Source: Ectocarpus siliculosus (lineage: Eukaryota; Sar; Phaeophyceae; Ectocarpales; Ectocarpaceae). From it: a stretch of 64,000 nt of DNA. Each line of letters opens with the position of its first letter. The stretch's first letter is position 1. Location of the stretch: the NCBI GenBank assembly GCA_000310025.1, contig FN649743.1, forward strand, positions 4,216,807 through 4,280,806, given 5' to 3'. Below, piece by piece: positions 40 to 45,123 of the stretch. The translations under genes were made by a program, and so were the position numbers. The notes under the pieces are model-generated. The model was not told the origin of the DNA and did no database searches. It saw only the letters and a program-made list of their open reading frames with translations.

Positions 40-3000
40 ATGGGTGAGATACGAAAAGACACAAACGACAGCACAACAACAGGTTACAGCAGTCTAGGGC
101 TAACATGAGTCTGCTTTTTTTGTACTGCTACATCACGATGGGTTTGTCGCACCACGTAAAAGTGCTCCAGTCCTCAAGTAGGAGATGCCGCCATTGAACT
201 ACTCTGGACGTGATGAATATCTGAGTCACTCTATCCACCCCCTAACTCTAGTTTATGCGAGCACTGCTGGCCTTTCGTCCTGCAACCTGTTTCGCAGGAA
301 ACTGCATCATCACCCCGCCGTCTCAGGTGGCCGTTATCTCTGGCCCTGGTAAATCCCGCATGGTCATCGGGCAGTGGTGAGCTGCGCATAGCTGTACATG
401 TAGAACGAGTGGATTGCGCGTGCGGAGCACTAACCCAACAAACTACTTTAACGCCTACCTGCTCTGCACTGCTGTAGGTCACGCACTGCTCCACTCTGTA
501 CATATATATGTTGCACAACAGCGCAGTCTAGAGCAGCGCAGGACTGCTGTGTAGTTGTTTCGTTATTTAGTTGTGCAGTCTTAGCCGTAGTAGTTACATA
601 GTTTCACGCTCGACAACTTCTCGTGTAGACAGATGGTCTAGCGCGCAATTCGCCACATTCATGCCCGCTAAATAACAGCGCCCTCCCATCCTCCTGCCTT
701 TGTTGTTTGTCGTTTGTCCCTGCAGCGCATTTCAAAAGTGGTTTATCGGTGAGTGAGGGTAACTACCTGATCCTGTCGGATGTTATTAAAACGGCCCTTA
801 CTCCTTCCCGGTTCTTCTCTGGAAATAAATGTAGACTACACTGCTGTCAGAGTAGGGCCGCTGCCACTTTCTGAGTTGAGTGTGGAGAAGGACTATTCTT
901 CATTGCGTTTGCAAGACTGAAAGCGGTGGTCAGACGAGCGATCGGAATCGAAACGTTTGTTTGTTGATGTGCGTTTGTTTGCTCAGTAGGCAACGATCCT
1001 GTGTGGGGCTCATAGAGTCGTCAGCTGTATGTTTGTGCAGCTTCAGTTGTCATCGTCGTGAAGTATTATGCATGGGTAAATTCATTAGGTATGTATGTAT
1101 GTGCGGTTTCCTAGATAAAATTAGACCATCTGATCAGTGGTTGCCCAGTCTTTCGTCCGACGTTCGGTACATACAGCAGTCGAACCTTTACTAAGACCCA
1201 TGTTTATGGTCGCCAAATCTTTGCGAAAATGTTTATATTTTCAAACATTTGCGGACAAAGATTTTGTTTCACTGTTTATGGGAGAAAATCTTCGCCAAAA
1301 TATTCTCAAACATTTTGAAATGGGGCAAAAGTCGCTCGTTTGACAAAATATTCTCAACATTTTGAAATGGGGCAGGTCGCGGAAATGTTTCCCAAGAGCG
1401 GCGGGATTAGTAGACGACCGCCCCTTCCGTCCTAAACACCAACCACTGCGTAGCGCACACTCAACGTAGCAAGCTCATAGAGGGATCCGGACAACCCTAG
1501 AGTCACCGTGTCAATGTTTTGCCGGCTGATACATGGCGGGAGCTCGTCAAGCGTGCACAAAAAAACAAACAGACGGGGGTGGTTTGGAGGGCACGGAGAA
1601 AGCGTGGTTTGTGTCTCCAAACGGCAAAAAGTCGGCTGCTTGAGAGGAGAGGTGAGTACAAAACTATCCAGCGCTCGTCCTCTAGACCATCGATTCATGT
1701 CTTGTCTTCTTGGGTGTCTTCTCCATCAACGGCTCTCATCCGGGTGTGCGTGGTTCAGCAGTGGACTTACTCAACAGGCAGGGAGGCGCGTCGCTGTGAA
1801 CTCGATGTGTTGAAAAAGTCTTTTTTGGGACGGAGGAACAAGAGCTCTATATTCAAGTGAAAAAATAGACCGAAAAAAACGTTGTGTCCACAACTTTGCG
1901 CGCATAACGATGTGCCTCCCTGCCGGCTGAGCGCGGCCACTGCCAACCCACGCACAACCGGATGAGAGTCGTTGATGGAGAAGACACCCAAGAAGACAAA
2001 ACATGAATCGATGGTCTAGAGGACGAGAGCTGGATAGTTTTGTACTCACGTGTCCTCTCAAGCGGCCGACTTTTTGCCGTTGGGAAGTGCTGACGCACGT
2101 TTTGGTCTCTTTTTGACACCGAGAACATTTTTTCTCGCACGCCCGGAGCGCTATCGCCACATATTGGCGGGCACAGCATCAGCTCAGTGCATCAAGGGTT
2201 GTGGGGAGCCCTTGGCGAGCTCGTTACATTCAGTTTCCATGACGCATTTGTGGTTTGTCTGTCACAAATCGTTTGGTAGCAGTAGACCACGATTGCCGCC
2301 GCACGTGCGATGCATTTCGAGAAACCACACGATAAAGATTTTTTTGCCCATAAAAACGGTACTCAAATGTTCCTCTGGCAGATATTCGCGCGCAAATGTT
2401 TGACAACATTTGAAGATTTTTTTCAAAGATTTGGCGACCATAAACATGGGTCTAAGGACGTACTCCTTCTACTTCTCGGTACTTGGTCTGCAAGACTGCT
2501 ATCTGTGTATGTATGTAGCTTGGCCAAAGAAAGCAAGTATCCATCTCTAGCCCGAGGAATTTTCCCGGGCTTTCTTCGTTAATTTCTCCGCGGTAATTTC
2601 ACTGCGTGCGGTAATTACCGTTTCCCGTGATCCCGTGATACATCACCATTAACGCCCAAACCATAAACGAAAATATTGATGTTTGCCATTACCGCGCAAA
2701 AATTGCAATTCCCGAGTTACCGCGGGGTACATTGCCGCCGTAAGAACGATGAGACCCATACACCACAGCAGTAAAATGACTGCTCACTCTACGCCAAGTA
2801 GGTATATGTGCGTCCTCTTGTTTGTTCTTTCCTCCTCTTTTGTTATTTCCTCCTCTTTCGCCTGATTGGCTGATTTGACCAACAGGTGTTCATGGTTGGT
2901 GTTTTTTTTGGGGGCCTGTTGCGTAAGGGTTGTTCTCTTGTTTTTTTGTTGAACCGTTCAGATCCACATCGTTTCTGTGTATGTATGAGGAACGCGGCGC

Positions 3001-6000
3001 TTTCTTCTTGCCGGCCCTTTCTGCTGATGGCATAAAAATTATATAATTACTTGGCGCAGCGCTGGACTTGCCACGTCGTCTTGAGGCCACGCGAGCCTGC
3101 CTGCAATGAAGTGCATATATTATGTATTATGCTGTCTGGTTTTCACCCTTCTTTTTATTATGCGACCGGTTTGTTTGGTTGACGGACGTGATGCTCAGTG
3201 AAAGTGTCGCGCACGTTTGTTGTGCGGTGGCCACACGCATAAGGAACACTTCAAAGCAAGTAAGCGAAACAGGGTCCGACGTGCCATGATGTGGATGACT
3301 GTACAACTCATACCGTGTTGACCAGTTACCGTGAAAATATGAACATTTATTTCTGTGCATTGCCGTGGTGGCTGGTTACCGTACAAGAAAATTACCGTCT
3401 TGACCAGTTACCGCACGAAATTTACCGTGGTGGCCAGTTACCGCCAAAAATACTAACCTGTGCCGTGGTGGCCAGTTATCGCCCAAAAAATACTGGATTG
3501 TTCCATGGTTTCTGGCTAACGCGGGAAATGATGCCGACATGAAAACTGTAGAGTGCTTCCGGGGAAAATTCTTGTTTCTCAATAAGGCCGCCCGCACAAA
3601 GTGGCGCTTACATATGGATATGCCACATGTTTACTCTACAGTAGTAGTTCCAACCATTAACTTGTACAAACGGAACTACAGCAGCAGTGCTCTGCGTCCA
3701 GGATGGGCATGTTTGCTCATACCTGCTATGTTACTCTGTCGCAAAGAATGGCACCACATAGTCTACATTTGTAGCCTGGATTGGACGAGCACAAGCGCAA
3801 CCAATATTGCATCCTGCGCCGTATGTACACTGCACAGACCGGGCGTGGAGTTAAGAAACACCATAATCGGGTCGAGACCAAGTTTTTCGTAAACAACACA
3901 ACAAAGTCCAACAAGGGAGTTTCTAGCCACCGCATGCACCCTACACTTTCTGGAGACTTCCTTGTCCGCAACGATATTAGTTTGTAGCCACACTTTGGTC
4001 AGGGGGGTTTCCAGCCATGTCATATTTGTCCTCGGCGACGCGACCACACCTAACAGTAGTGGTGCCGTCACGCAAAGCCTAAAAAAGCTGCCCACCGAAG
4101 CTGCCATATCACACCGCGCCGAAGTCTGAAGGCTATAAAGCGGCCGCACGTGTCGACACAACACCTTATTTCCTTCCCTATTGCCTCCGTCACCAGAGAG
4201 GGTGGAGATCCTGAGCCTTGAGCTGATCACCTTGACAGTGAAGAGCGTGGAGGCCGAGACCGTGCGAGGCGTTCGCGTGACCGTCAGCGGAACCTGCCAG
4301 GTCAAGGTCGACGCATTCACCCAACAGGACCTCGAGCAGAACCTTCCGCAGATCACCTTGGCGTGCCAGCACTTCCTCGGCAAGGTCGGTGATATGCTTG
4401 TTAACTAAATCTTGGCCGATCAGCACAACCCCATCAAGCCTCAAACAGCCCTAAGCGTTCGTTCTTTTGCTTTTCGGCCAAGGGGCCCACTTGCTGCGTG
4501 CTTTTCGACCGGTATGGCAGACGTTTTCTTGCCCTGGTCTCGCCACCACATCTATACAACTGGCAACGTATGTATTTCTCTGCTATCCTCACCCCCCTCG
4601 CTATTCACAACCATTTTTTCCCATTTCGGTCGCCTGCTTGTATCGGTTCTCCTTCTGTCAGACTGAGGATCAAGTCCACCAAGCGCTTCTCCGGACTCTT
4701 GAAGGCCACCAGCGGCAGATCCTCGGCACCCTCACCGTGGAAGAGCTGTACAAGGTGTGTTGTCGGCCCGTCCACAGGAGAAGGCATGGCAGATTTGTAC
4801 ATCTCAATAGAAACATACGCATAGCCAAACGAGATAAGGCATACTATACCAACGTTTAGAACATTTTTTGCAACAGCAGCCCGGCCTTGATGACATCTCT
4901 GAGGACTTGTAGGCGCCGCGACAGCACCGCCGGTAGAATGAACCCGTGGATAATATATTGCGATTGTAGATCACACTTCCCTTTTGGCACGTAGGTTCTT
5001 CAGCATTCAGCTCCTTCACAACTGCGGAACCTGTGGGAACTCCGCTGGTCTTTTTTCCCCCCCAAATGGTTTCATCGCTTTTTTTTTTCCTCTTTCCCAT
5101 GTCGACCGGGAATTTAGGATCGCGCCGCTTTCTCACAGCGTGTCCGAGAACACATCCAGGAGGTGAGAGAACATCGGTGGGATAGGCTGGTGTTTTCCCG
5201 GGGGGGAGGTTGCGGGATATGGTCGCCTCAACAGCGAAGCATCTCGTTACGTAGGGAGCATGACCTCCACGTCGTGACGCAGAGCTCATGGCGGTTGAGG
5301 TGGTGATGCCTCGATCCGACGTTGTTGCAAGTCCTGTGTTTGTTTCAACGTAGAAGGTGCGCGAAGCCAAGGTTCGCAGAAGCTGAACCGTTCCTGCGGG
5401 ACGCAAGGCTCTTCATTCGCTAGCTGGGATGCTCCGCCAAAGCGCCGTGCTTTTCCACTCACCAACAATGTCTGCGCCAGCGGTGCTGCGACGATGGCAT
5501 CTAGTCCGGAAGTCTGTACACCCCGTCACGACTAATCGCGCTGTTTTTGTGTCCCAACTCTTGCCTCGGTAGGACCTGAACAACATGGGCTTCGCGCTCG
5601 TGTCCTACACGGTGAACCAGGTCCTCGACTCCCAAGGATAGTGAGTACGGCACCAATGCTTGTGCGACGCTGTGTGCATTCCATGCAGGGATTGCTCCTG
5701 GGAAGGCGAGGCGTTGGCATCCTCCAATTTTTTCCCCCTCTGCCGAGAAAAAGTAGCGATACCATCTTGTAGGTCTGTAGACGGTAATCGAGTGGATACA
5801 TGTGCAGTGGAGGACGTGAAAACCTCCCGGATAAATCGTAAACCTTCTAAGTGTGGTGACCATTGGCCCCTTCAAGTCGCGATGGCGCCTGTGTTGATGC
5901 GGACCGGTAACAAAATGCTGGCATCGTCGACAATGAAGCCGTGCATGCTGTGTGACGGCACCCATCTCCCGCTGCACTATACCCTCTCTTGCCCGTGCGT

Positions 6001-9000
6001 TTTCTGCTTCTCTCGTTAATGCGATCTGTTGGCGACCTTCTCGCAGCATGGAAGCGCTTGGTGCTACTCAGACCGCCCTCGTCAAGGTCGGTGCCAGATA
6101 GAGTATTACACAATGTTGCATGGATGTTTGGCGCCTTCTTCGTTGCAGCTACAAACTTAGCTAACTCTGGAAGTTGTCCTCTGCACGACCACTTTTGACA
6201 TCATGGTGACCTGTGGTCGTTCACGTTGGCCGCGTGCCTAGCCTTTGCTTGTGCGTTGCTAAAAAAAACAACCATTGTGTGAATATTTGCACCACGCGTC
6301 CCAACCGCTTCTTTGTTGTCATGTTGAAGCGTGATATGTTGAGAGCAAGCACAAGTCGCATTCTTGTTCACTCCCATCGATGTCAACATTTACGTCACAA
6401 TCCCCTAGCATATTTCTCTTTCAATCGACATCTACAATTGCATCACAAGTTCTCTGCCTATCTCGCTTCTAATGTTGCCGTTTCGCAGCGCGAAGCCGCG
6501 GAAGGAGAGAGCAAGAACGTTTCAGAGGCCAAGAAGCGCGTGGCCGAAAACGAGAGCTCTGCCAACATGGCCGAGGCTACCTACCGCGCGGAAGCACACG
6601 TCGGGGTAAGTTTGTTTTTCGAAACTAGACACTATACGTCTGCACGATGTACTTTCACCCCCAATCGGCGGTTGATTTTTTATTATTCGAGTCTTTTTCA
6701 TGCACGGCCCGTGATCAAAACGTTGTGTCCCTAGCGTGGGTCTACAGCAACTCGAAACATTTTTCTTTTTTGCTATCGAGTGCTGCGTGACCGTTTCATG
6801 ATCCCAGCACCGAGGATGTACATCCTCGTTCCATCGTGGCGAAATAACGTTTGGCTGTACAAAATATCATGGTTTAGGTGGCCATGGAAGACGAGAAGCG
6901 GGCCGCGGCTGACCGAGACCTGGCCATCAAGAAGGCGGCCTACAAGGCCGAGGTCAACCACGCCGAGGCCACCGCGGCGGTAGCGTTCGACATCGAGAAG
7001 GCCCGGCAAGGGCAGACGGTGGTGCGAGAGCAGACGAAGCAGAGAGCCGAGGAGGCCCTGGTGATGCTGGACGTGCAGGGTACGGAGGCCCTGACGATGC
7101 AGAAGCAGAAGGAGGGTGTCTCGAAGGCGATGCTCATCGAGGAGAAGAACAAGGCCGAGGCCATCCGCGCCAAGGCCGACGTAAGCACCGTGCCAGCGCC
7201 GGGTTGGCGTAGTACATGTCCCGTTGCGTTCTTTTCAAGAAAGGGAAGCCTTCCTGTTGAGCACTCTCGCCGTTTTTCGTGCGCGTGGTTGCGTTGCAGA
7301 TGATTGCTATGCTCGGGGAGCTACTGCTACCAGAGTGTGTATCATTACGATTCCCGCACCCACCCACCCCCTTGTGTGGCCCTTACGGCTGAGCAGGCCA
7401 AAGCACACGAGATCAACCAAGTTGGTGTGGCCGAGGCCTCCGCCATCTTGGCTAAGGGAGAGGCAGAGTCCAAGGTATGGATTGCAACACCCCTCTTTTG
7501 GCTCACTTTTGGTCGTCATAGCTCGGAGTTTTCGCCCGCACCCACGTGAACGTCGCTTTGACATCTGTTTTTTGCTCCTCTTGTTTCAATCTCTTCTCCC
7601 GATGTTCTTCCTTTTTACTTGTACATTGAACACAGACAAATACACTCACGTGAAGGTCATGATACACACACTGGTGGTTAAAAGCGCAGGGCTCTCGAGC
7701 TCCGACGGAAGCTTAACTTTGCAGATGAAGCTCGTAGGAGACGCTGTGTTCGTGCAACAATGCAGCGAAGACATCTGAATGACGGCGCCCCAGGGTGTAG
7801 CTTGCCGGTTTAGATGGAGACACTCGGAATTCACATTTTCGCTGCGGGGCGATCGCTCTTTTTCGCCACCTTCTTTCCTTCCAGGTTCTTGAACTTCGTG
7901 GCGATTCATTCCAGCACTTCGGCAACGCCGCCATCGTGCAAAGCATCGTCGACAGGCTGCCCGACATCGCCAGGGAGATCGCCGCCCCTCTCGCCAAGAC
8001 CGACAAGGTTCGACTCTCCCACTGCCCCTGTTTCGCCGCATTCTTGCACCATGATGAGAACCACCTTCCCCCACCAGCTTCTTTTGAATGTGCCGGGGGT
8101 GTTCCACGATATTTCCACTGGTGTATGCACGTATTTTGAGCTACAAATTCCGAAAAGCTGAGCGGCGGTGTTGTTGATCATCTGGAGCGGAAGAAAGCTC
8201 GTCTTGGAACAGATTACACACATGCGGCGCAAAACTTGTGTCCACCGTCCGCCCACCATCTCTGCCGAGTGTAGAACGCACCTCCGCGTAGCATGTGGCT
8301 TTTCTTTGCTCTCTCTCTCTCTCTCACCACCTCAGCGTCCCCGCGATAGTCTCCTTGTGGCTTTGGTGGGGCTGTGATATTTCCCCTTGAGAGATTTACT
8401 GAGGACAGGTGGCGTACTTCATTTCGATAGCCTCTTGAAGGTATGCTCCCCGCACCGACCCAAGATCCGACACTATCCGAATCGTTTATATTCTGAAGTC
8501 GGTACACACCCTTAACCTCGGTCTTCTTTCGTTCTCCACGCGTTTCCAATGTCCTGTGCGTTGTGCGTTGTGCGTTGTGCGTCGCACTTTGCAGATGGTG
8601 TTCATCGCCGGGGAGGGCGGGGGCGCCGGCAGCCGGCTCACCCAAGACGTGGGCAGCATTCTGGCGCAACTACCCGAGACTGTCGAGGCCTTAACTGGAG
8701 GTATTTCTCAGCTCGCTTTCCCCGTCACTTTTTTCGGAGAGCAGTAGTCTGTGCGATTGGTGCAATCTTTACCGGTGTTTTATCAACGCGAACGTCAACT
8801 TCGTTTTTCGACCCACATCAATTTATACGCCTTTCTCGCCCCTCCTCCCTGTCTGATTTTCGCAGTGGACATCACGAAAGGATTGGACCGCATGGTCGGG
8901 AGCGGAGGAGGGGGAACGGGAAACAGCAACGGCCACATGGACCCGAAGCTTGCTGCCCTGCTGGGGGCGGCCGCCGCTAAGCAGAGGTCCCAGCCCGTCA

Positions 9001-9017
9001 CGCCAGGAGACCACTAA
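40..9017 (+). CDS. FLOT: Flotillin, copy A (14 exons, complete)
   Basis: Flotillins are SPFH/PHB membrane scaffolds that oligomerise on the cytosolic face of microdomains. Exons read: 40-43, 298-376, 726-748, 4197-4384, 4662-4754, 5118-5162, 5573-5640, 6047-6086, 6489-6605, 6878-7180, 7397-7474, 7885-8007, 8595-8700, 8866-9017. They total 1419 nt, 472 aa, in frame throughout (animal flotillins are about 427 aa). Visible landmarks are N-terminal MGNC, as in animal flotillin-2 and typical of N-acylated proteins; the SPFH segment with CQHFLGK, RTLEGHQRQILGTLTVEELY and NNMGFALVSYT; a long Ala/Glu/Lys coiled coil in exons 9-11; then LPDIAREIAAPL and LPETVEALTG near the end. The start is set by ATG+G at 40-43 followed by a GTGAGA donor. 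Intron 3 (749-4196) is 3.4 kb and holds a fold-back repeat. The first 39 bases are all that is visible upstream, so the promoter is outside the window. The family call is firm; single splice sites are hand-made. Confidence 0.93.
1194..2453. mobile_element. Fold-back (long inverted repeat) element in flotillin A intron 3
   Basis: A 30-nt perfect inverted repeat (1194-1223 and 2424-2453, beginning AGACCCATGTTTATGGTCGC) bounds the segment. Inside it a second pair of arms, 1621-1787 and 1914-2080 (167 nt each, about 90% identical by eye), faces a 126-nt loop. The nested palindromes resemble a fold-back or long-TIR DNA element. No transposase frame is visible and I could not fix a target-site duplication. 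A transcript of the host intron could form a very stable hairpin here. Confidence 0.7.
3310..3525 (+). repeat. Degenerate tandem repeat in flotillin A intron 3
   Basis: Four to six imperfect units of roughly 30-50 nt built around GTGGTGGCCAGTTACCG, followed by an A-rich stretch, run through the last part of intron 3. Scattered TTACCG motifs also occur at about 2600-2740. No coding sense is seen. Confidence 0.5.
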
Positions 9018-12000
9018 GGATCCAGTGCCATCGACTATATGGCAGCAACAAGCTTTAGGGGTCCAGAGATTGCTGCCTTCCGGAACACCTCACAACCTAG
9101 GCACGCTGAAATTTTCCGGCCGTACATGCAGCGCAGGGCGAATATTCTTCTGTCGACTCTGTGTGCTGCCTGCGTGCCCCTCTATCGTGAGGAGGGCATC
9201 CTGTTGATCGGTTCATGTGCTGCCGCCCTTCCTTTTTGCTTTTCGTGAGAGGCCAGGAAGCGACCGTGGGGGGGGAACACGCTACGTCTTCGTGGTACCC
9301 CTTCATTGTGTCGGCTGTAATTATTCGGGTTGAACATTATCTAGAGGTCCGAGTCTACCGCTCTGTGTACCGAATCTTTATTGAAAACACTGCCGTTGAT
9401 TCCAAGTGTCTGGTAGAGACAGCAGAGACGAAGTTTACTGCCGTTTCTCATGTAATGTGTGTCTGTTTTGGTGAAGGCCAGGGTCGGCACATCGCCGTGG
9501 CCAAGCAAACGAGCACGATGATGGCGGTTTCTAGCCCATCGTTGTTGGACTTGGGAAGGGGGGCGTCTGTACGTTTTCGTAGATGTTCAACGTACGTTGG
9601 GAAATCTGTTCGCACGGAGGCTAGGGGCGGGACATCGCCGTGGCCAAGCAAACAAACACGATGGCGGTTTCTAGCCCATCGTTGTGAGGCTTGGGAGGGG
9701 GGGCGTCTGTACTTTTCGTAGATGTTCGACGTACGTTGGGAAATGTGTTCGTACCTGTTTCAACAATGCTTGTGCACTTTGTGACGTTTGCCTCCTTCGG
9801 AGTCATGGATTTGTATCTGCCGTGTAAGGGTCTAGACTATTGAGCTATTTGTGTTTGCTGTGTGGTGGAGGTGGGTCTGTCGGGTCGAGTCAGGGAAAAT
9901 TGACTCCTGTGTTTGGTTGTGGGTGCGTTTGAGCCGACATGCAGAAATTGTTGCGCCTTCCCTGTCGTGTATCGACGACTACATATATGGATGGATGGGC
10001 GTTACGGGGAACTTTGGAGTCGGCGTTGCTTTTGGCACGTCCTCAGTTGCCGGCTTGTACCGTGTACGCTTGAAGTAAGGCCATGTGCACGGGTTCGGGA
10101 GACTTGGGCGAGACCCTTTTTCATTCGAAGGTGTATCGCTTGAGTTTGGGGTGAAGATCGGCGTGAGAAGAGGAAGTACGATTGTCGGCGCACATTGTTG
10201 GTACAGGAATGAGTAAGCATCGTGTCGTGATAGCCTACAGGTGTTTTCACGGCAATTCGACGAGAACTTTGACATGATAACAAAACACACCGAAAATATT
10301 TTTTATTTCATCTCGATCTTTGCAACAGGACCTCGGGTCTTATGGCATCCGATCCCTAAAACTATTTTCACGAGGAATCGAAAACGAATGCGACGCGCCG
10401 GTATTTTGATTGGTCTTCCGGTAAGGAAATTTCGCTTTGTTTTCGGAAATAATGGAATAATCTCGGTTTTCCATAAGAAAAATCTGTTTGTAGATATATC
10501 GACGAGTGTTAAGCCGATTAAAAAACTGCTTCCATACCGTACGTCTCTGCGGCTGTTTCATGCGGATTCGTTCAACCTACGATGGAGCCTCATTTCTCGA
10601 AGGGTTAGCTTTCTTTCCCGAAACCCCAGGGAAATGAACCCTCTGGTGGGAGCTTTTGCTAATTTCTTGTGGTAGGAAAATAGGAAATAAAGAAAAAAGG
10701 TAAACGACAGCGTCCCACGGGACGGCCATATTTGGCCTCAAACAAAAAAAGGTTGAAACCTAACCCTTCCGGAAAATCTCATTTCCTCGTCAAAGGGCTT
10801 TGAATGCATCCGCTTAGATCGGCCCAAAAACGGGTACGTTTTATTTTTCATCGGCCAACAATTTGTCGAGATATTGGCGCTATGGTCAATACTCGAAATG
10901 CGCGAGAATTGTGCTTTAGATTCCATCCACCTGGCGCTTTCGCGCAATCTTTTCAATATTTTAATCCCCCATAAACTCTTCGAGATATCGTGAAAAGAAG
11001 CAATTGTGATGGTGCCAAAATGCCGTGACACATCTGTACCTAGGTCCTTAAGCTCCTCTCCCCCCGAAAGGTATTGCCTTCCGAATCACAGCAGTATGTC
11101 GCGCTTCAATCCGCGCGGGAGAGAGGCCGAAACGCCAAGGTACCTGTTCGTGCCCATGGAGCTACAGAGAGGACGTTCACGGCGTGCTTGTGCACTCGTC
11201 GCCCTACCGGTAATCCGGGGCCTCCATCCTTGGTAGCGGTTTTTACCGTACACTCGTTTGGGTAGGCTTGGCCACAGACGGGAAGTCTGGAAACGGAGTC
11301 TGAGAGGGTTTGAGCTTGGCCGCTCACAACCTCTAAGATGCGAAGGACACTATTACCCATTCGTCTGTGGCGCGGGCGAGGTGGAGAACGGGCTACGTCT
11401 CCCTACACTTCGTACTGGCTGTGCGCGTGCAGCACGCCGCCGGGAACAATCTACACGCGCCTGGAGTCAGTCACGCAATACTTGAACATTTTCATCTTGC
11501 GACATATCGAACCTTGTATCCAGCGGTCCTTCTTCGACTCCGCAAGAAGAACATGATGACAATCTCAGCTTCCTTCGCATGCCTCCACCCAAACTCGTCT
11601 CGGCGCAAACAGTGCTACGTATATACATGCAAACTCGAGTTGAAGAGGTACTGGATTGTTGCGTTTTCACGGGCAAAATACTGCTTACCCATCTACCCAG
11701 CAGAACGAACATGAAAACCCTGTTGCAAGCTACTACATATTAATCGAACTGGCCGCATCCATCGGCCTCCCCGCGGCGCGTGCGCACTCAAAACGGAGTA
11801 AGATCGCGCACACAGAGGATAGTCAACGACGAAAAACAAATTAAGACAACCAGCTACCAGCAACACGAGTGCGGCACTCGCTTGACACACGCGTGACTCG
11901 AGAAAAGGGCGTTGAACCAAGGCACGCCGTTCAACATAATCTTACGTCTCTACAGCAAGGGAGCTCCCCCCGTAGTGATTGGCTTCCTACGAATTGTTGC

Positions 12001-12769
12001 CCGAGTTTGTACTTCATACACTCCTACAATACAAGACTTAATTATCCCGGTGTTAATCGCGATTCGAAAAAGGTACTTGTGTATCAATAATACCAACAGT
12101 TGGAGAGTTCTTGTATTCGCCCGATTCGGCTGAGGAGAACACAACATCTTGTACGAAAATCAGACAGTTACACGGCCAAACAACAACAATCAATCTTGCT
12201 TAAGTGTGAGGTGAGCATCCAACTGCGGGTTGCAATCGAACTATTTTGTACTGTTGCTTCACGATAAACATACATAAAGATGGGCCGCTGTATCCTTCCA
12301 CAACGACATCACAAACCCTCCATGCCGAGCCAGAAATACAAACCCTTCCGCGATTATGGCACACGCCACAAAGAGAGGCCCGATTGGCTAAGCTACGTGC
12401 GCTCTTTGCTGCTTGGACTATTGCGAGCAGGGGGGCGTGACAGGAAGGCGACCTCTTTGCAATAAAAAAAAACGATACGCCAACAGTCTCGAACTTCAGG
12501 CAGGATTGCAGTCGCGGTCAACGTCCGACGCCCCGCAGATGGCCACAGAGGCTGTCGCTTCCTTTTCTATCCTGAAAATGGCATTCAATACATCTCTAAC
12601 GCCCAACACTGTCGTCTGGAAAACATCACGAAAGAGTCTAAACAACATGTGCGCGCATGCGCACGCAGGAGATGTACTCTCCTCCGGGTCAAATATTTAC
12701 CAAGATGCCGTCACCACAATTGTTTCGTCGTCAGGAAAAGAGTAGAGTAGAGCTGTGCCACGGTTCGCA
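9018..12769. other. Spacer between the convergent flotillin genes; no supported gene
   Basis: This stretch holds both 3' ends. Open frames here lack recognisable similarity, splice-consistent partners or exon-like codon use. It contains a 143-bp direct repeat and, at about 10240-11030, an A/T-richer block with many short CGAAA/TTTCG motifs that differs in composition from its surroundings and may be an old insertion. No termini could be defined for that block. Confidence 0.5.
9479..9760 (+). repeat. Two-unit direct repeat, period 143 bp
   Basis: The unit starting near 9479 (containing ACATCGCCGTGGCCAAGCAA at 9489) recurs with the same motif at 9632. The units agree over about 120-135 nt with small indels and scattered substitutions. 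It lies about 0.5 kb downstream of the flotillin A stop codon and is not coding. Confidence 0.75.
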
Positions 12770-15700
12770 TTAATTCGCTTTTCCGGTGGAACGGGGGAGG
12801 GGGGATCCCTTGCCGGCCGCGGGTCCGTTGCTTCCTGCAGACCTCTCCTGCCCGCCGCCCCCAAGGTAGCGCTCCAAACCCTTCGTAATGTCGACTGCGA
12901 GAAGAGAAAAAGAGTGATGCGGGGCTTCAGAGACAAACGGTGGGCTTCTTTGTCGTTGTGTTGAAAGCAAGTCGATGTACATATACCCACAGATAACAAA
13001 TGGAGACAGTCAAGGAGCTTGGGACGACGAAAAACAAAAAGGAGAGCCGCATGGTATGGACGACAAGGTAGGGTGTCTGACGGGCGCCCGGAGCAGGCAT
13101 GAATGTTACCAGCGGTGGCCAGGTTCGCTACTAGAGAATGAATAACATCCAGGAGGTGATCCTCGACACAGGCCTGCTGGCAGCACTACCTCCCCCCAAG
13201 TAGAGCAGGCAATATCGTAGAACAGTCAAGGTTGGCGCTGAGACCCGCGGATAAACCATTGGGTGTTGGGATAGTACCTTATGTTCACTACACACAACAC
13301 TCAGTATTGATGTCACTAAGCTTTGCAAACGTGCGGAAATCGCGATCACGGCGTCTCCGGGTGGTCGCAACCAGGCCTGCCAAAGTCTACCCAAGTCTTG
13401 GATGGCAGAGAAGAAGTTACCTCCCGTCAGTGCCTCAACGGTTTCGGGGAGTTGCGCCAGGATGTTGCCAACGTCTTGCGTAAGGCGGCTGCCGGCACCG
13501 CCGCCCTCGCCAGCGATGAAGACCATCTGCAGAGAGAACAGGACGCGCACACAGAAGATGGGGGGAAGTGCGGGACAGACATCACAGGGAGAGGAAGAGT
13601 AATCGACGTGAGCGCGGTTTTCCACAGGACGCGAGTTTTCGAACCGTACGGCCGGGTCAGCCGAGGCTTGGTGGGGGCGGACTGCTCAGGGTACCGGTGG
13701 CCGCGTGCGAGCGATACGGTCCAAAGCGGGGAGGCGTAGGCATGTTTGACACGAACCCTCCTCCTCACAGAGACAAACCTTTCCTCCGATGATACCTCGT
13801 TCTCTGCCGCTGTTAGGGCCCACGCGTCGCCCGCTTCAAGACGCGTATCGCTCAAACAAGACACACCCCCAGATTCGGATCGTGACCCCCAAGTCCAAAA
13901 TAACACATGCCTAACGAACGGCGCGTGGTCAAGCAGAAACACGTGCTGTTTGAGATCACACGTGCCCCAAGCGGGGAAAAACACACAGGGCGGGAATCGG
14001 GGGGTGTCACGCACCTTGTCGGTCTTCGCGAGAGGAGCGGCGATCTCCCTGGCGATATCGGGCAGCTTGTCGACGATGCTCTGGACCACCGCTGCGTTTC
14101 CAAAGTGCTGGAATGCATCACCACGGAGCTCGAGAACCTGGCGCCCAAGAACGAAAAAAGGACAACAAAAAAGCCCCCGAAGCGTGTCCAAATCACGGTC
14201 GGGATGGTACGGGGAGTACTGCCCCCAATCGCAAGAAATGGGGAAACTTTCGCATCGACATGCGACTTGTTCAATTCAAAGAAAAAATCGGCCATGGTGT
14301 TAATGTGTGCGTGAACGAAGCAGTTCTTTCACTCTGGCCGCATCCATTGCTTCGAAAGCGAAGTCGACCATACGCCCGAATATACTAGCTCGGCGAGTAT
14401 ACTACGCAGTGAAGTATAGTGCATGGCCTAGCGGTCTACAGACTGGGCGGCTTGTAAACCCTCTTAGAACGTCACACGATGAGTGTCGAGACGAGCTCTA
14501 AGCATGCACAACCACGAAAGCAGCAGCATGAACCAGTGCTACGTGGTTGGCACTGCGCCGCGTTTTACCTTAGCCTCGGCCTCTCCCTTCGCCAGAATGG
14601 CCGCCGCTTCTGCCACGCCGACTTGGTTGATCTCGTGCGCTTTCGCCTGGGAAACGCGTACAGGTACGTTCGACAGCACGCGTTAATGGCGGAAAACGGG
14701 GGGGCATCGTATTGGGCGGCGGCGAGGAGCCCGCATCTTTGATTGCGAGCGACTCGCTGCAGCCACAATAGCTGCAGAATTCAACCGTACCTCAACCCCG
14801 CGGTGCCGTTCTTCCCTTAAACTCCAATTACATCGGTGCACCCCCCCCGAACAGACCTCTGCGTGGAAACGACTAAGGTTCTCCGCTTGTAGGCATAGTT
14901 CACGTCGGGTTTCGACGATCGTAAACCGCCTGGACGGAAAATCCTGTGTAAAGCAGAATTGCCTGACCAGTCCGAAGGGCCAAGAGCCTGTGAGAAAGAT
15001 CGACCTGCCCCGCGATCTTTGGGCGACCGGTATTCGTTCGTGGCCTCCGCCCCGAACCGCTAGCAGCAAGGAGTTCTCCGAGGAATAAAACGAACACCAT
15101 GTCATGCCGGGGGGCAAGTTTCGCGACTAGAGCAGGCGGCGCGTATGCCTGCTAAACGCACCGGGATGTAGGGCGCACGTCTCGACCCTGGCATATGGAA
15201 AAAAGTATCACCCTCCAAGCCAGCGTGCCCTCGACGTGCGTAACTGGGAAAGATGCCGCGCAAGTCACGGCGATCAGAACTCTTTCTTCTAGTCTGCCAC
15301 CCCGACTAAACAGCGACAATACACGGCCAATTCCCCCGAAATTCTCACGTCGGCTTTGGCGCGGATGGCCTCGGCCTTGTTCTTCTCCTCGATGAGCATC
15401 GCCTTCGAGACACCCTCCTTCTGCTTCTGCATCGTCAGGGCCTCCGTACCCTGCACGTCCAGCATCACCAGGGCCTCCTCGGCCCTCTGCTTCGTCTGCT
15501 CTCGCACCACCGTCTGCCCTTGCCGGGCCTTCTCGATGTCGAACGCTACCGCCGCGGTGGCCTCGGCGTGGTTGACCTCGGCCTTGTAGGCCGCCTTCTT
15601 GATGGCCAGGTCTCGGTCAGCCGCGGCCCGCTTCTCGTCTTCCATGGCCACCTGAACAGGTGGCGATTGGAGGTTGTTGTGAATCGTCGTAGGTGCAACG

Positions 15701-18700
15701 CGAAGGCATCGGATTGCGTCTCGTGAACGTTGCCCAATGGTTGACAACAAAAACGTAGGTAGGCGTGTCTTACCCACCGCCTCTTTGCCTGGCAACAACT
15801 TGGACGGTCCAGGGGCCTGGAGGCAGATAGACCCAAAGGGAAAGTAACCTGTCGAACCAATCACACCTTTACTTGCGTAGTGTCTATCCCTTCCTGGTAC
15901 AAACCAGGTTCGCTTCCTATTCCGCCACTAGACGGGTTTCCAGAGAACACCCGTCAGAGCGATGTAGGAGCTCTTCGTCATTCGGGCCATGAGTACCACC
16001 AGCATACATGGGACATATTACAGTGGTGGGCGTGGTTGAGCGGCCCCCTGCTAAGTGACATGCCCTGTATAGCAACGTGCTCTGTTAGCAACCATAAAAT
16101 CGCTTGGTGGTACCACTGCACCTCGACTAGTAGACACTACTATACCGGCAATGACGACCTGCCATGAATAGCGCGCTCCTGACACTAGGCGTCGTCGCAA
16201 AACCATGCTCTTCCCTGTGCAAGTGGCCGATGTGTTTTCCAGAGATAGGCTACATCTTCCGAGGTCTGCGCATGGGCGACACTAAGAATGCACCCACCCC
16301 GACGTGTGCTTCCGCGCGGTAGGTAGCCTCGGCCATGTTGGCGGAGCTCTCGTTCTCGGCCACGCGCTTCTTGGCCTCGGACATGTTCTTGCTCTCACCT
16401 TCCGCGGCTTCGCGCTGCGAAACGACAACAAGAGAGCGAGATGGGCAGCGGATTTGTGATGTTAATGTAGATGTTGATTGGAGCGAACAAGAAAGCAACG
16501 TGTTGCTTGATCTCGCCCTCCGCGGCTTCTCGCTTCGGATCGAAAACGGTCCCCCGGAGAGACAAAAACATGCATAGTCTCTGCAGCAGGACGACGGCGA
16601 ACAAAATGCGGTGAAGACGCGAGAGACGTGAGGGCGGAAGACGTTAGGGCGAAAGACGGTCTTCGAAAGAAAGAGCGCCGGACTCGTCGCGGGTGTTCTC
16701 GTGCTCTTGTAACGTTCTTGGACGATAACACCCCTGCGACGCTGAGAAAAAAAGAGGAATGGAAAGGCCAGAGCGAGTCATCAAACTCGACACTGGCTAG
16801 GCGGGTCCGTGCATCTCCGGCCCATGAAAACGTCCGCGTGAACAGGGTCAGAAGTGGCCAACCGTGAAACGAAGAGAGGGAAGTCCATCGAGGCGCAACA
16901 GCACATGTATCCCGAACAAAGCAACTTCGCGACGCACCCTTCCACAGGGACGCATCGGGCACAAAAAGGCCCGAAAGTGCAGCAACGATATGAACACAGC
17001 AGTACAACGTCGCTTGCAGTCGCACGACACGACGTCAAACCACAAAAAACCAGGTGTACCTTTACGAGTGCAGTCTGAGTGGCACCGAGGGCCTCCATGC
17101 TGCAAGGTTACGAGCGAGGGAATGGCACGCCATCCATTCAAGAAGGGGGTACCCACCAACGAGCCGAGATGGTGTCCCGAAGGAGGGTTGGCGAAGCACA
17201 GAAGAGAGGCAGAGAGACAGACAGACCGGAAGACAGGCAAGAGTCAGACAGAGGGACACGCACACACGACAGAGAACATAGAAACCGAGTCCGACCACAA
17301 GAGACGAGAATGACCAAGAAGCCCACCCAACGCTTTCAAACAGGACAAAGAGCATGCTAGACTGTAGAGAGAAGTCGATGAAGCCAGGTCATCACCACAC
17401 GATCACAGGGCAGGCATCGTTTCGCGGCAGGAAAACAGAAGCCCGAGCAGGGAAGAAAGGTCGGGGTATGTGCGGTGGAATTCCTAACGTTGAGCAAGCC
17501 CTAACTGGCACGATTACTCTAGTCGCACCGCAATATAGTGTCGGCATCACTCAGGGCGAAACGAAACGCTTGTGATGTCAAGAGCGCTGGATCGGTCGAA
17601 CGAGACAGCACACCCCGAGACGACAACGCCTCCAAACGATATCGATCTCGAAGACGAGACTTTCGTGTATGCGTACGCCCCTCCCCAAGAACCCCGACCC
17701 AGTGCAAGAAGCGACTCGCCCGTCATGAAACTACATCTTAGCGGAATGTTCACACGCAACAACGCAGGAGCTGTGTGTACACCATAGACCTTTGTTCTCG
17801 GGAAACATTCACGCCTGTTTTCACGTGTAAGTATATTGGGCTGGAGAAACAGAGACCGCGGTTGTCGCACTGACTTCAGGAGCTGGCATGTGGCATGTCG
17901 TCTGCAAAATAAAAAATACTTGGGAGAGCCGAGAAAATGCGCCGATACTCACTATCCTGTGGAGTCGAGGACCTGGTTCACTGTGTAGGACACGAGTGCG
18001 AAACCCATGTTGTTCAGGTCCTACAGTTCGGAACGTGGGGTTTCACGTCGATCACAAGCCGCGAAAGGAGAGCACGTGGGACACGGGGGGGTGCACACAC
18101 TTAATGCATGCTAAAGTCGGTAGATCACTGACCTCGCATCCCTACGATACAGGGATGGAGCGATATGCCGGGTTTTCGCCGGTCCAGCCTACGTTTCACA
18201 AGGCATGAACCAGAAGCTGGTCATCACATGGGAGGCTAGGGGGGGGTTCAGTACAGCGCGGAACAGATGGGGCGGGCAGTTTCGAGAGAGCTTTCCAACG
18301 CGTGATAAAGACTTGGGTGACATCGCTTGTGTCTGTAAATTTTACGTCAACAGCGTAAACCGGCTGACCAACGGAAAGGCGTCATTCCTATCGCAGGACA
18401 TGCCTGAGCGAGAGCAGGCCGTACGAACTGAGTCTCATCCTAGTTTCCAAATCACAGGACTCACCTCCTTGATGTGCTCTCGCACGCGCTGGGAGAACGC
18501 TGCACGATCCTGCACAACGTATCGAAGGTAAAGAAATGGGGAAGCGAGGAGGGGGAAGAAGAGGGAGCAAGGCTGGATGCTGATGTGACCAGAGCTGGAC
18601 TAGGGAAGTCGAAGAATCGAGAAGCGGTCAGATTTCGCTCCCCGTCGATACATACTTGAACCCAACAATGACCACTTCGCATTCACCCCCCCAAAACACC

Positions 18701-21700
18701 CGAAATAGAGAGATGAAGACATCTTCTTAGTTTGTGCCGGCTTCTCGCCATGGCGTGACGCCATGCGGTCTTGTATCATGCCCGGTAGACATGGCCAACA
18801 CTGCTGGTGGTGCTGTTGTCATAAAGCAAAGCAATAATCTGACTCCTTACAATTAGAACGAGGAAAGGCAGCAGGACACGCCGCAATAACCAGACTTGAC
18901 ACAAGACAAACAACATGCCAAGGTGATACGTCTTAACACTCGCAGGTTCGTAAACTCAACCACCTGGACACAAAGACAGGCGGTAGAAGCAGGGAAGTTA
19001 ACAATAGTCGACAATCATCCACTCGCTTTCGATACTCTACCATGCCCCCCACACCCGAAACGCCCGCAAACGCCTCCAGGTACGGAAGCACAACCAACGC
19101 GCCTTGTACAGCTCCTCCACGGTGAGGGTACCGAGGATCTGCCTCTGGTGGCCTTCCAGGGTCCTGAGAAGCGCTTGGTGGACTTGGTCGGACGTCTGCC
19201 GAAACACAAGCACAACACAGCATCAAGGAGCAACCAGGTGGTAAGGAGACAAGATATTGCGAGAGGACGGCGGACGGGGAGAGAAACATCCCCACGGAAG
19301 GGTCCGAGGGCCAGTAGACTTTAAGAGTCTTGTCACTTGAAGCAGCCGTGAATGCTGTCTCGTAGTTGTCGATGGCCCCGAGGCACGCGTTCTTTCTCGA
19401 CAAGCACGGAGAGTGCGGGCTCAACCATATGCTTAACAACATATTGTTGGCTAATATCCTCCGAAGGAGTATCCAACTCTCGCTCTAGGTCCACACTCCC
19501 CTGTGCCAGCAGCTTTTTTTCCCGACGACACCTGGGGCATGGCAGCCACACACCTCTACGAGCGCAGCAAGCAAACAGCGGCCGATGTAAGGACCCGAAA
19601 TTGAAGTCACCAAACTCTATCTTCTGAACAACAACCTACCAATCGGACGGGAGTTCGAATCCCAGGAGGTGCGTTTTATCCGCGTTTCGTACATGGTAGT
19701 TGAAAGCGCTTGCTTTCATGAGTACCTTTCAACCCTTCCAAATAGATAAGGCACGCAACGCAGAGGAATCATTCTGCGTGGTCGTGGATTGGAGCTCTTC
19801 AGGAAAGTCGTACGGAAGGCAGACGTTACCAACCAAAGCCAACCATGGAGATAACGACGAACTACCAAAGTCTCGCCAGGTGATGTCAACGCCATGTGTT
19901 ACGAGGAAACAACTCAGAACCAGCCATCTAATCGAAGAGCACGCAAACGGCTGGCTGACCTTTCCGAGGAAGTGCTGGCACGCCAAGGTGATTTGCGGAA
20001 GGTTCTGCGACAGGTCATCGTGCGTGAAGGCGTCCACCTTGACCTGGCACGTTCCGCTGACGGTTACACGAACGCCTCGCACGGTCTCGGCCTCCACGCT
20101 CTTTACGGAGAGGGTAATCAGCTCCAGGCTTAGGATTTCCACGCTCTCTGCCGACCGCGAAATCCACGACGCAACCGTTTTATGAGAGCAAGCTCTGATC
20201 ACCGAGGGCTGGGGCGGGCAACGGACTAATAGCATCCTTCCGATGCCCACACTGGGAGGGTGTGCGCATCCAACAAGTTCAAAAAGCTGAGGGTTGCGAC
20301 CTAAGAATTTGTTCATCTGTTCCTACAAGGCACGCACTGCAGCAGTAAGCGAAGTCAATACAGTTGGCGCCCGCAGTTAAGAAACATTTTGTTAAGAAAT
20401 TGAGGCTCACTTTTTCACGAAAAACAAGAAAATAGGGTTAAGAAACATAGCTCAATCTGGGTCACACAACAAGAAATGTCTCAATAAGAAACACAGCGGC
20501 GACCGCTACCCTACTACATAAGAAACGAGGGTTTGCGGGGGAGTGTGTCGAATAAGAAACAAACCCCACAGCTCTCTCGCTCTTTCCCCCTCTCCCCCTA
20601 CCCCCCCCTCCCATAGTGCATTATTATTAGTTGTACGACGAGGGGGGAGTGTTTTTTTTGCGGCGCCCCCTCCGGCCCCCTGCGGGCTCTGCCACGCTCT
20701 CTGCTGGCGCTAAAGCTTTGGCACAGCACACCGGACAGGCTGCGAACCACGACATGCTGTCTGCTGTACACGGCTTTGATGGTGCTCTCCACCAGCTCTC
20801 GTGAGGTCACCCTCAGAGATCAACAAGAAAGAGCTGTCAACGAGCCAGCTCGGGGACATCAAGAAGCACCTTCTAAGAAATAAGAAACATGATATAAGAA
20901 ACTGAACGACATACATGCGCTGAGTTTATAGCCCACAATAAGAATTCGAGGCTGGACCTGAAATAAGCGTTTCTTAACTGCGGGCGCCAACTGTAGCCTA
21001 TGCTACAAGGCAACCCAAGGAAGACACAAATCACCACAGCACAAGTGCACTCCATAAACGTTATCGACAACCTATCCTGCAAAGCTCCGCATGCATGCAT
21101 GCCCTCTTCGTCTCTCTACTCTCTACACGACGCCTGTGCGAGCCGTTGTCCACAAGCTCACACACGGCGAGCGGTGGACCGACGCCAGTAGGCGCTGAAC
21201 TCACCGATAAACCATTTCTGGAACGCGCTGCAGGTCACGAGCAAAAAGAACCAAACAGCAGCAGGCATATTGTAGCAGCAGGCGACAGAAAAGAAGTAGG
21301 CCTGAGTGTTCAACAAACATGTGTGCGGAAAACGGCGACTACAGCAGTACAACAGTTAATTAATGTGTGATAGCAGTACAGGCTACTTGCAGTCTAGCGC
21401 GGATGGCAAAAGGAACACCGAGCCGGTTCAGCCCGCCACGGCACCAAACGCATTCGTCGCGATGCTGCCGCCCACGGACTCACCATTCCCCGATGACCAT
21501 TCGAGATTTACCAGGGCCGGAAATAACGGCTACCTGGGACGGCGGGGTAATGATGCAATTGCCTGCGAGAACGGCGCGAGAATATAGCACGTCAAGGGGG
21601 GCAGTCGGAGATAAGGCCGGTTCGGCGTTGTGCACCAGGTACGGAACACTTTTTTTAACCGACCGTGTGTACAACACTAGGGCCACAAAAGCGAGAGCAT

Positions 21701-23755: not shown

Positions 23756-26700
23756 GACGATGACCGAAACAGGAAAGACGACGACGTCGCCGTCGTAGTC
23801 GGACAGCTGGTTCCTGCCCCGACGCTAACCGCCTACGCGGTATCGGCAACGTTAAGGACAACCCCCGACAACACTCTCTGGGCGGCCACCGCGCGGGGAC
23901 CTTCATCTTCTTCCTCGTACGCAGCACCGGTCATGCACAACAGCACGGGCTCTTTTAGCGTCGCTGGGACCAGCACTTCGGGGGGAGCCCGCAGCGGCGG
24001 CCTTAGACGTGGTAGCAGCGGTGGCTCGGTCCCGGGAGGGAAAGCACGCGGAGGTGGCGGTGAGGGAGACTCTGCTACTGCTGCTGCTGCTGCTGCTGGT
24101 GGGGAAGGGGCGTACATGCCGGTGATGACACACACGGGGACGAAGAACGTCCCCGGCTGCGGTACCGCTAGCAGCACGGGGGGGAGGCGTTTCGGGGAGG
24201 GGGCGCCGGCGACGACGGCCGCCGGCGGTGCCAGGCAATCTCGCGGCGCTCCGTTTGCGCCGGGTGAGCAGGAAGGAGGCTGATAGTAGTGCCGAAGGGC
24301 GCAGTCTACACAGGCAGGCTTGTGATTTGCTACCGGGTTGTGATGGGCGTTGTAGCATAGTTTCGGTTTCTATGTGTCTGTTGTTTACAATGGTGTGGGT
24401 TCTCAGCCTCAGAAGTAGTGGGGCGACTGTTCCCAACGAGCAAGTCTTAGGTCGACCGAGAAATAGCTTCGTCGAGGTGGTTCTCTTAACAGTTTTGCCG
24501 TCGTTTGAAGGGGCCGCCGCCGGTCTCTCGCGCACTCCTGCAGGTGCGTCGACATGCTGAACATCGATCTCGCCCTGTGTAAAGCGCCAGACCACCGCTC
24601 TCCCTTCCGCGCACGAAACCCATTCCGAAGTCACTCGTAACGCAAAGCAAGTACGTAGATATCAGAGCGGGCTGCGTTAGCCTAAATGTGCCACCTCAGC
24701 AAGTATACGGATTTTTTTTTCTTTCCTTCTCTCATGGACGCACGTCCTTACTTTCGAACACATCAGCAGGAGGCGGGGGATCCTTGCCGATGAAGGACGG
24801 AGACTACGTAGCCGACGGGGGCCCCGTGCTTGTCGCGTGCGGACAGGGGAAGTCGATGTACAACGTCAAGGGGTGCATGTCCTCGTGGGTGCTCGTTGGC
24901 GGTGGCGGCGGCGAACAACCAGACGCCGTCAAAGAAAAAATGGCAACAGCAGCCGGCCGTGGCGCCGGGGGGTGGGGCGGAGGAGGAGGTAAGGGGAGAT
25001 GTTCAAGCTTTTGGTGATGTTCACCCGTGGTGGGTCAGGCGTTTTCCTCCTATAATGTCGATGCCAGTCCTTTTTCCCGAAATCTACTCGCAAATTTACA
25101 GGCCGACCAGCCTACGGTGACCGAGAAACCACGGTGTTTACTATCCCGCATTCAAAGATGTATGATCCGGTTTTGCTGGTGTAGTCTGGGTTGACATACC
25201 TTTGTTCCAGGCCTCCTGCCGATGCCTATTGTCGATGGCTGCACGCCCGACTGCATCTAGAAGGAAGCCCATACCAGTTGATGCTATTTATCTCGGGCCT
25301 GTTCGTGTTAGTTAGAAGGCTCCTCTGAGCACTGCTTTAGTTTTTAACGCCTGTTCCTGTAGAGAACCCTTACTGCATTCGACGACAACACCCTTCTCGA
25401 TGACGCAACAATATATAACACGCAGCCAATCGTCTTGGGGAGATAATCTAACATGCACAAGCACGTTCCCGACACCCAGCACCCAGCAGCCAATCCTGGG
25501 CACTTCGGTCCGAGGACAACCCGGCCGGAGACGGCGGCGTGATGTGCTCGGCGTGCGTCCCGTCGATCGCATCAGGGCAAGCGTCGGGCACGCTCATCAC
25601 GGGGGGGAAGGACAGCGTTCTGAGGGAGTGGGAGATCGCGGAGGGGCGCCCGCGCCTGGTGGCCCACATCTCGGGGTAAGCATGGGAAGCTTCGCCTCCT
25701 TCCCAGCGCTATATTCCTCCCTGCGGTAGTGCCAGTATATAGGGCAGGCGTTAAATAGACCACCGCGTAGCAATAGTGAGCCGGGAGCTCTGCAGCATCT
25801 GTAGCGCGCTTCTTTTGGCCAGCCCTCGTCCTAAAGGCATGCGATGGTAATATTCTCATCCTCGCTCTGAGTAACCCTTGCCGGACGGCGCCAGCCACCG
25901 TGCCCCCCCCCCCCTCCTCACTATCTCATGCTCTCTTCGACCTTCTTCGTACCACCCCTCCAACATCACCATTTGCTCATGGGTGGCACCAGCCCACACA
26001 CCACCACCGCAGTGCGCTCACCCCCCTGCATGCCGCAGCTTGCATCCGTCTCACTCTCCCCCCCGGCCCCCCGAGTGAAGACNNNNNNNNNNNNNNNNNN
26101 NNNNNNNNNNNNNNNNNNNNNNNNNNNNNNNNNNNNNNNNNNNNNNNNNNNNNNNNNNNNNNNNNNNNNNNNNNNNNNNNNNAGGCCCCCGCCCCCCCCC
26201 CCCCCCCCCAAGGGGGTCCCCCCCCCGCTATGCGCCGGTGTGCTTCGGTCTCATTTCCCCCCCCCCCCCCCCCCTGGGGTAAAAAACCCCCCCAACCCCC
26301 CCCCCCCCCCCCCCCCAGGCACACCGACTGGATCTCCTGCTGCGCTCTCGTTCCCTCCGCGACCGCCGGCGTCGCCCCCTCGGTCGCGGTGTCCGGCGGG
26401 CGGGACGCGTCCGTTCGCTTCTGGCACAAGTCCGACGCCGCCGCCGCGGAGGCCGCCGCCGCCCGAGCGGCATCGGACGCCCTGGCCAAGGAGTCCGCCC
26501 AGGGCAAGAGGAAGTCGTCGCTCCGGGCGGCGTTCGCGAGCGGTAGCCGTAGCTCCAGCGGTAGAGATCTGGGAAGCGGGGGCGGCGGGGGCGGTGGTAT
26601 TGTGCCGCCGGGCGATGGCGGGTGGTCGCTGGCTTCCTCCGTGGCCACGGCGCACGGGTCATCCGAGTTCGTCACGTGCTGTGCTTCCCCCGGTGGGTCC

Positions 26701-44443: not shown

Positions 44444-45077
44444 CAGATAGCGCCCACAGATAAGAAAAGAAACGTCAACGTCGGGTCGAGCCTCAATCCC
44501 TTATTTTGGGTCAAAGGGCCAGCCCGAAGTCGTCCCATTTCTGAAAAGGCATTTCTTACTCCTTTGGACTGTCGCATCCCCCTGATTCTCATGTTTCTTT
44601 GAAGTACTTCGAATTTCTTATTTCTGCCTTTTGGTTTCTGAGGACAGTCCACTTCTTTCTCAAGACCTCGAAAGAGGCGTGGAGAGTGCCATAAAATCCG
44701 TACAGCGGACAGCATGTGGTTGTCCGCGATGTGTAGCAGTACTGCAGTATAGCACAGTGAGCAGCAGGGGCGCGGGGGGCGCCGCGAAAATATCCACTCT
44801 CCCCCCTACCATAAAAAACGCACTGGTCAGCTAGGCAGGGGGGTGGGAGAACCGAAGGAGCAGCAGTGGGACGTCTCTTTCTGGACACGCTCCCCCAGCT
44901 ACCCCTTGTTTCTTACCGTATGTCTTGGGGGTATCTCACCACGATGTTTCTTATTGGGACGTTTCTTATGTTGTGCCCGAGATTGAGCTGTGTGCCGTAG
45001 CCCTTTCTTCATAATTTTCGAAAAAAATTGAGCCTTTTATTCCTTACAAAAGTTTTCTTTACTGCGGGCGCTATCTG
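44444..45077. mobile_element. 634-bp TIR element, second copy of the flotillin-B-intron family
   Basis: Termini CAGATAGCGCCC at both ends in inverted orientation are flanked by TA at 44442-44443 and 45078-45079. Its reverse complement aligns by eye along the left half of the element at 20361-20993, including CTCAAT, TAAGAAAC and GGGGGAG blocks in the same order. Length differs by one base, so this is a defined family rather than chance repeats. No transposase frame is seen. Confidence 0.85.
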
Positions 45078-45123
45078 TATGCTGTGACTTTGATCGAAGA
45101 AAAATTCCAGGGTAACTCAGGGA

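Follow-up and report, generated by a model that had tools for sequence, protein, structure and literature searches.

Gene conversion confined to exons best explains a nearly identical exon in two otherwise diverged, inverted flotillin genes of Ectocarpus siliculosus

A 64,000-nucleotide (nt) stretch of the genome of the brown alga Ectocarpus siliculosus (the window, to whose whole length all positions refer; it lies within contig C18 of an assembly of 189 Mb in 492 contigs) carries two flotillin genes arranged tail to tail, gene A on the forward strand and gene B on the reverse strand. These raise the question of how a single internal exon, exon 10, can be almost the same in both genes when the introns on either side of it are unrelated. 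The model of gene A is based on splice borders and an open spliced frame, and its protein matches the Pfam family Band_7 (PF01145, SPFH/Band 7 domain) with 76.6 bits against a cut-off of 23.6 (E 3.2e-21), with residues 1-427 matching Flotillin-2 in PDB (E 5.6e-65), and with the Pfam Flot model PF15975 scoring 22.7 bits, under its cut-off of 27 (E 1.1e-4). All 13 intron positions are common to A and B, and exons 1-13 have the same length in both. The best explanation, to which we give a probability of roughly 85% from sequence comparison, is interlocus (ectopic) gene conversion confined to exons by the diverged introns between them.

In both genes exon 10 lies where the first-pass annotation of this DNA had placed it (Table 1), being 303 nt long, in frame and bordered by AG and GT, and the two synonymous differences reported there were also found, with 301 of 303 nt identical and identical translations. 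The identities given for other exons hold likewise, at 94.9% for exon 9, 87.2% for exon 4, 86.2% for exon 12 and 80.8% for exon 11. When the genes were aligned exon by exon, synonymous divergence (dS) in exon 10 was far below that of the rest, as had been expected, at 0.029 (nonsynonymous divergence, dN, 0) compared with 0.70 for the other exons 1-13 pooled and 0.79 when exon 9 is left out of these as well. At four-fold degenerate positions, 0 of 49 differ in exon 10, 3 of 19 in exon 9 and 68 of 142 elsewhere, and a comparison of silent sites between exon 10 and the other exons 1-13 gave a Fisher p of 6e-13. The longest run of identical codons is 70, a length that none of 20,000 random reorderings of the codons reached. 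Counted in nucleotides over the 13 exons compared, the longest identical run is 167 nt in exon 10 and at most 45 nt in the other 12. A genome search in which only the best candidates were scored and some stretches were masked as N found two copies of exon 10 and no third, and likewise no third flotillin that could act as donor or outgroup, aside from one weak match on contig C304 to the C-terminal part of the protein (18.8 bits, E 0.08).

The similarity stops at the introns. In 12 of the 13 intron pairs it is no better than that of shuffled sequence, and this includes introns 9 and 10 on either side of exon 10, whose local scores lie under the shuffle maxima (Table 1) and which are unrelated between the genes, just as had been claimed. 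The sole exception, overlooked in the first-pass annotation, is a stretch of 67 nt at the 3' end of intron 8, with a local score of 73 against a shuffle maximum of 28; a genome search with this segment found two places. It adjoins exon 9, and its distance of 0.15 is near the dS of that exon, which, with exon 10 set aside, has diverged less than the remaining exons (Fisher p 0.0023); the identity of the last 45 nt of exon 9 has a chance of ~0.05 given the 6 mismatches in the exon. Exon 9 and the end of intron 8, together ~184 nt, therefore look like one second and older tract on sequence grounds, which would have been made from a DNA template because it crosses the splice site and contains intron sequence. 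The earlier proposal of a single recent tract thus stands for exon 10, but the tract is not isolated, since it is accompanied by this putative older one and by a divergence graded by exon length. As a separate observation, intron 8 of gene B also contains 35 nt (16498-16532) that resemble the beginning of exon 9 (score 38, compared with at most 30 in 300 shuffles) and sit 17 nt upstream of the putatively converted intron end, perhaps as a remnant of a partial exon 9 duplication.

The gradation was measured over the 12 exons from 2 to 13, with the silent proportion of exon 3 (23 nt) capped at 1. Exon length and silent divergence, from per-exon silent-site counts, are negatively correlated (Spearman -0.76, p 0.004), and remain so without exon 10 (-0.69, p 0.019) and without exons 9 and 10 (-0.66, p 0.038); a codon-counted version gave -0.72, or -0.64 without exon 10. 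The GC content of third codon positions (GC3) correlates with exon length at +0.76 and with divergence at -0.93 over the same exons. Exon 10 is the only flotillin exon longer than 200 nt.

Table 1. Coordinates of the two flotillin genes and of the segments compared between them (positions within the window).
Feature	Position	Strand	Role or boundary	Details
Flotillin gene A	40-9017	+	ATG at 40 to TAA at 9017	472 aa; 14 coding exons
Gene A exons 1-7	40-43, 298-376, 726-748, 4197-4384, 4662-4754, 5118-5162, 5573-5640	+		
Gene A exons 8-14	6047-6086, 6489-6605, 6878-7180, 7397-7474, 7885-8007, 8595-8700, 8866-9017	+		
Flotillin gene B	21973-12770	-	ATG at 21973 to TAA, stop codon ending at 12770	463 aa; 14 coding exons
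Gene B exons 1-7	21973-21970, 21562-21484, 21227-21205, 20147-19960, 19195-19103, 18509-18465, 18020-17953	-		
Gene B exons 8-14	17099-17060, 16414-16298, 15651-15349, 14646-14569, 14137-14015, 13526-13421, 12894-12770	-		
Exon 10 of gene A	6878-7180	+	putative recent conversion tract	two silent differences to B in 303 nt
Exon 10 of gene B	15651-15349	-	putative recent conversion tract	same differences; only two genome copies found
Intron 9 of gene A	6606-6877	+	boundary of putative recent tract	unrelated to B 15652-16297; local score 18, shuffles up to 24
Intron 10 of gene A	7181-7396	+	other boundary of putative recent tract	unrelated to B 14647-15348; local score 20, shuffles up to 25
3' end of intron 8 of gene A	6422-6488	+	within putative older tract	56/65 aligned positions identical
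3' end of intron 8 of gene B	16480-16415	-	within putative older tract	match to A
Exon 9 of gene A	6489-6605	+	putative older tract, dS 0.20	last 45 nt identical to B
Exon 9 of gene B	16414-16298	-	putative older tract	dS 0.20 to A

For comparison with other paralogues of the same genome, the Pfam families LHC, Hsp70, tubulin, GAPDH C-terminal and actin were searched and paralogues of three of them compared; these families were chosen as conserved and multicopy and hence are not a random sample, and the GAPDH and actin searches gave no usable set of close paralogues. Two β-tubulin genes lie head to head on contig C9, with dS of 0.041, 0.049, 0.047 and 0.187 for exons of 425, 531, 210 and 144 nt, respectively; their introns 1 and 2 are unrelated and intron 3 is partly alike, with 57/65 positions identical at its end and 77% identity over exons 3-4 including this intron (gapped blastn). 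The β-tubulin pair on contig C2 has a dS of 0.042 over three exons, and here a block of 99% identity includes the intron that separates exons 2 and 3. Comparing the C9 with the C2 genes gives a total dS of 0.425-0.466, and comparing these genes with the copy on C27 gives 0.67-0.74. One intron is present in the C2b, C9a and C9b genes and missing from C2a and C27, and the sequence to either side of it in C2b has a nearly identical counterpart in C2a (L017 1084-2034 and 5358-6640; L018 1156-2106).

Likewise, two α-tubulin genes on different contigs (L019 and L021) have unrelated introns, with a dS of 0.21 in an exon of 1001 nt and of 0.57, 0.70 and 0.59 in exons of 57, 134 and 211 nt. The Hsp70 genes L006 and L007, also on different contigs, have four exons at dS 0.12-0.17 and three unrelated introns, and the Hsp70 pair L008 and L009 has alignable introns with exon dS of 0.13-0.18 outside a frame-broken exon; L009 (C12:3214800-3220700) has one exon with an in-frame stop and another with a broken frame and is probably a decaying gene. 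In an LHC cluster on contig C16, the first gene was compared with eight of the nine other copies seen over three exon blocks, giving dS of 0.40-0.49 (280 nt), 0.33-0.79 (99 nt) and 0.81-0.94 (128 nt), a length trend that is weak at most. As a side observation, 20 LHC matches of equal score and model range (127.6 bits, 2-161) were found on five contigs (10 on C92, 3 on C232, 5 on C488 and 1 each on C11 and C18), which points either to strong homogenisation or to recent amplification.

From the flotillin comparisons we infer conversion as the cause of the exon 10 identity. Genes A and B would descend from an old inverted duplication, after which the introns kept all 13 positions but lost any recognisable similarity, so that homology would be left only as short exon islands, and ectopic conversion at the DNA level would act only inside an island, at a rate depending in part on its length and identity. 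Exon 10, as the sole island above ~200 bp, would recently have been overwritten over its full length in one gene by the copy in the other, exon 9 and the end of intron 8 would have been overwritten earlier, and the shorter exons would mostly have escaped. GC-biased conversion, if it recurred, could in addition account for the high GC3 of exon 10. The 303-nt tract lies inside the known length range of conversion and ends where homology is lost; in yeast, PMC3924818 gives ~200 bp for efficient conversion and mean tracts of ~50 to several hundred bp. The inverted, convergent arrangement, which the first-pass annotation had thought to favour pairing, may help but is not required, because the compared Hsp70 and α-tubulin copies with similarity confined to exons sit on different contigs and the C9 β-tubulins are head to head.

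Four other explanations can be weighed against interlocus conversion. If selection had held the silent sites of exon 10 in place without exchange, through codon use, splicing enhancers or an overlapping or antisense product, this would agree with the absence of amino-acid change and with a GC3 of 0.907 where 0.747 is expected for matched amino acids (p 5e-5). However, when codons were drawn twice from exon 10's own usage, 27.8 differing codons were still expected where 2 are observed, none of 200,000 such simulations gave so few, and amino-acid-matched rates from the other exons predict 32.2. Splicing constraint, moreover, should guard short exons and exon edges, yet here short exons are mostly more diverged and edges are unprotected, and the similarity flanking exon 9 in intron 8 is left unaccounted for. 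We therefore consider silent-site selection very unlikely, and conversion bounded by non-homologous introns, as originally suggested, fits far better than either such selection or codon bias. Conversion from an RNA template, in which complementary DNA of one copy's spliced transcript overwrote the exons of the other, would explain the exon-exact borders, the near-equal dS of three C9 β-tubulin exons, and the extension of the identical run into exon 9, where it covers the last 45 nt and is the only pointer to a spliced template in the flotillin pair. Against this template, the putative older tract is not intron-free, since 67 nt of it belong to intron 8 (taken by itself, the exon 10 tract is compatible either way), the C9 β-tubulin similarity takes in the end of intron 3, both flotillin genes keep all their introns, and there is no 3' bias, with exons 11-13 at dS 0.71-1.98. 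An RNA template is thus improbable, and we infer a DNA template for exon 10 as well.

An error of assembly or polishing that copied one exon 10 to both loci had been raised as a concern in the first-pass annotation, and the window does have a gap of 100 N at 26083-26182. This concern is lessened, if not removed, by the two differences inside exon 10, the unlike flanks and the absence of any N within 10 kb; a single local error would also not be expected to produce the graded divergence of the other exons or the exon-only similarity in other families, and we regard it as highly unlikely. A young duplication combined with very fast intron turnover, needing no conversion, would fit the transposable-element-like insertions in intron 3 of both genes, but the other exons of the same genes stand at dS ~0.8, so that exons 2-8 and 11-13 contradict it. 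Pairs of the same genome at dS 0.04-0.18 (C2 β-tubulin and Hsp70 L008/L009) also keep alignable introns. Little-diverged exons between introns without homology are thus a recurring pattern, for which fast intron turnover alone does not account. We give this last possibility almost no weight.

Beyond the flotillin pair, conversion in this genome may follow a wider rule, by which diverged introns split paralogues into exon islands that behave as independent units of concerted evolution, with those above ~200 nt kept alike by recurrent GC-biased ectopic conversion, also between contigs, and shorter ones tending to escape, so that exon size would set the tempo of paralogue divergence. We offer this rule tentatively and think it rather doubtful as a whole. 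In a logistic model over four pairs, namely the flotillins without exons 1 and 14 and one of 10 β-tubulin, one of three α-tubulin and one of six Hsp70 pairings (the C16 LHC cluster was not included), the slope per doubling of exon length was -0.41 (z -6.0), or -0.25 (z -3.0) without the flotillins. By pair, the slopes were -0.87 for flotillin (z -6.0), -0.30 for α-tubulin (z -3.4) and -0.47 for the C9 β-tubulins (z -1.4).

Several observations weigh against exon length, GC bias or both as the controlling factors. For Hsp70 L006/L007 the slope is +0.25 (z 1.0), and exon-level permutation within the four pairs, flotillin included, gave a modest p of 0.029; the length trend recurs in some pairs of other families and fails in others, and is mixed outside flotillin. 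Between the C9 and C2 β-tubulins the 210-nt exon stands at 0.27-0.30 and the 425- and 531-nt exons at 0.44-0.55, and a 405-nt exon is the most diverged in the Hsp70 comparisons L006/L008 and L007/L008 (0.31 and 0.28). Within the flotillin pair, exon 7 is off the trend, being 68 nt long with a dS of 0.22, and no effect of distance from the exon edge was found once length was in the model (z 1.4), which is unfavourable because tracts inside exons might leave edges more diverged. Silent-site GC is raised in the putatively converted segment, and high GC3 might promote conversion instead of resulting from it. In yeast, furthermore, PMC3924818 records rare conversion with identity runs near 10 bp.

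Other features of the locus were also noted. The exon 5 donor of gene B (19101-19102) reads AAG|GC in place of GT, which reflects either an intron of the GC-AG type or an error in the sequence. Intron 3 of gene A (3.4 kb) contains a foldback element at 1194-2453, whose terminal inverted repeats measure ~60 nt (87%) and enclose another inverted repeat of 178 bp (89%). In intron 3 of gene B there is a 633-bp element (20361-20993) with 25-bp perfect terminal inverted repeats starting CAGT and TA flanks, which we take to be Tc1/mariner-like, and a related stretch (78%) lies at 44945-45080. A direct repeat of 134-138 nt (89%) occurs downstream of gene A at 9475-9751. Comparison of the 6 kb upstream of the window with the stretch upstream of gene B gave no match for the sequence before the start codons, and the other matches of these 6 kb within the window look like simple repeats.

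The flotillin pair offers a compact natural test of the island length and similarity needed for ectopic conversion, in which a dozen other exons of the same pair serve as internal controls. Were the wider rule true, the 8.2 kb that separate the inverted exon 10 copies would be turned around by a crossover between these copies, with exons 11-14 exchanged between the two genes, and this segment may be a recurrent inversion. If the exon-length rule applied genome-wide, duplications in intron-rich genomes could not be dated from the silent distances of paralogues, recombination would make long exons seem young and GC-rich, and introns would act measurably as barriers to it. A literature search over titles and abstract openings returned no report of this flotillin pair or of brown-algal conversion graded by exon length, though one may exist.

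The event itself would be of a known kind. According to PMC3966223, interlocus conversion between paralogues is mostly reported for exons, can be impeded by fast-diverging introns and occurs in both orientations. The palindromic Hsp70 and Amylase pairs of Drosophila, as described in PMC3924832, are inverted neighbouring paralogues homogenised by conversion, with GC generally higher in tracts than in flanks, and that text leans towards GC promoting conversion over conversion bias. The flotillin genes resemble them in being inverted neighbouring paralogues but differ in that 12 of their 13 introns no longer show any recognisable similarity and that their coding sequence appears only partly homogenised. 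With its 303 nt, exon 10 fits the ~200 bp threshold for the minimal efficient processing segment of yeast and the tract range in the material cited above, where, however, the islands are built test constructs and not natural exons. Primate class I alcohol dehydrogenases show exon and intron trees that disagree, explained by exonic conversion in PMC3409193; unlike in the flotillin pair, their introns are alignable and conversion was found in introns too. Compared with interlocus conversion generally, the flotillin pair has one of 14 exons apparently overwritten edge to edge and a divergence graded by exon length, and this exon-size gradient within one gene pair is unusually clean and is the unusual part of an otherwise known kind of event.

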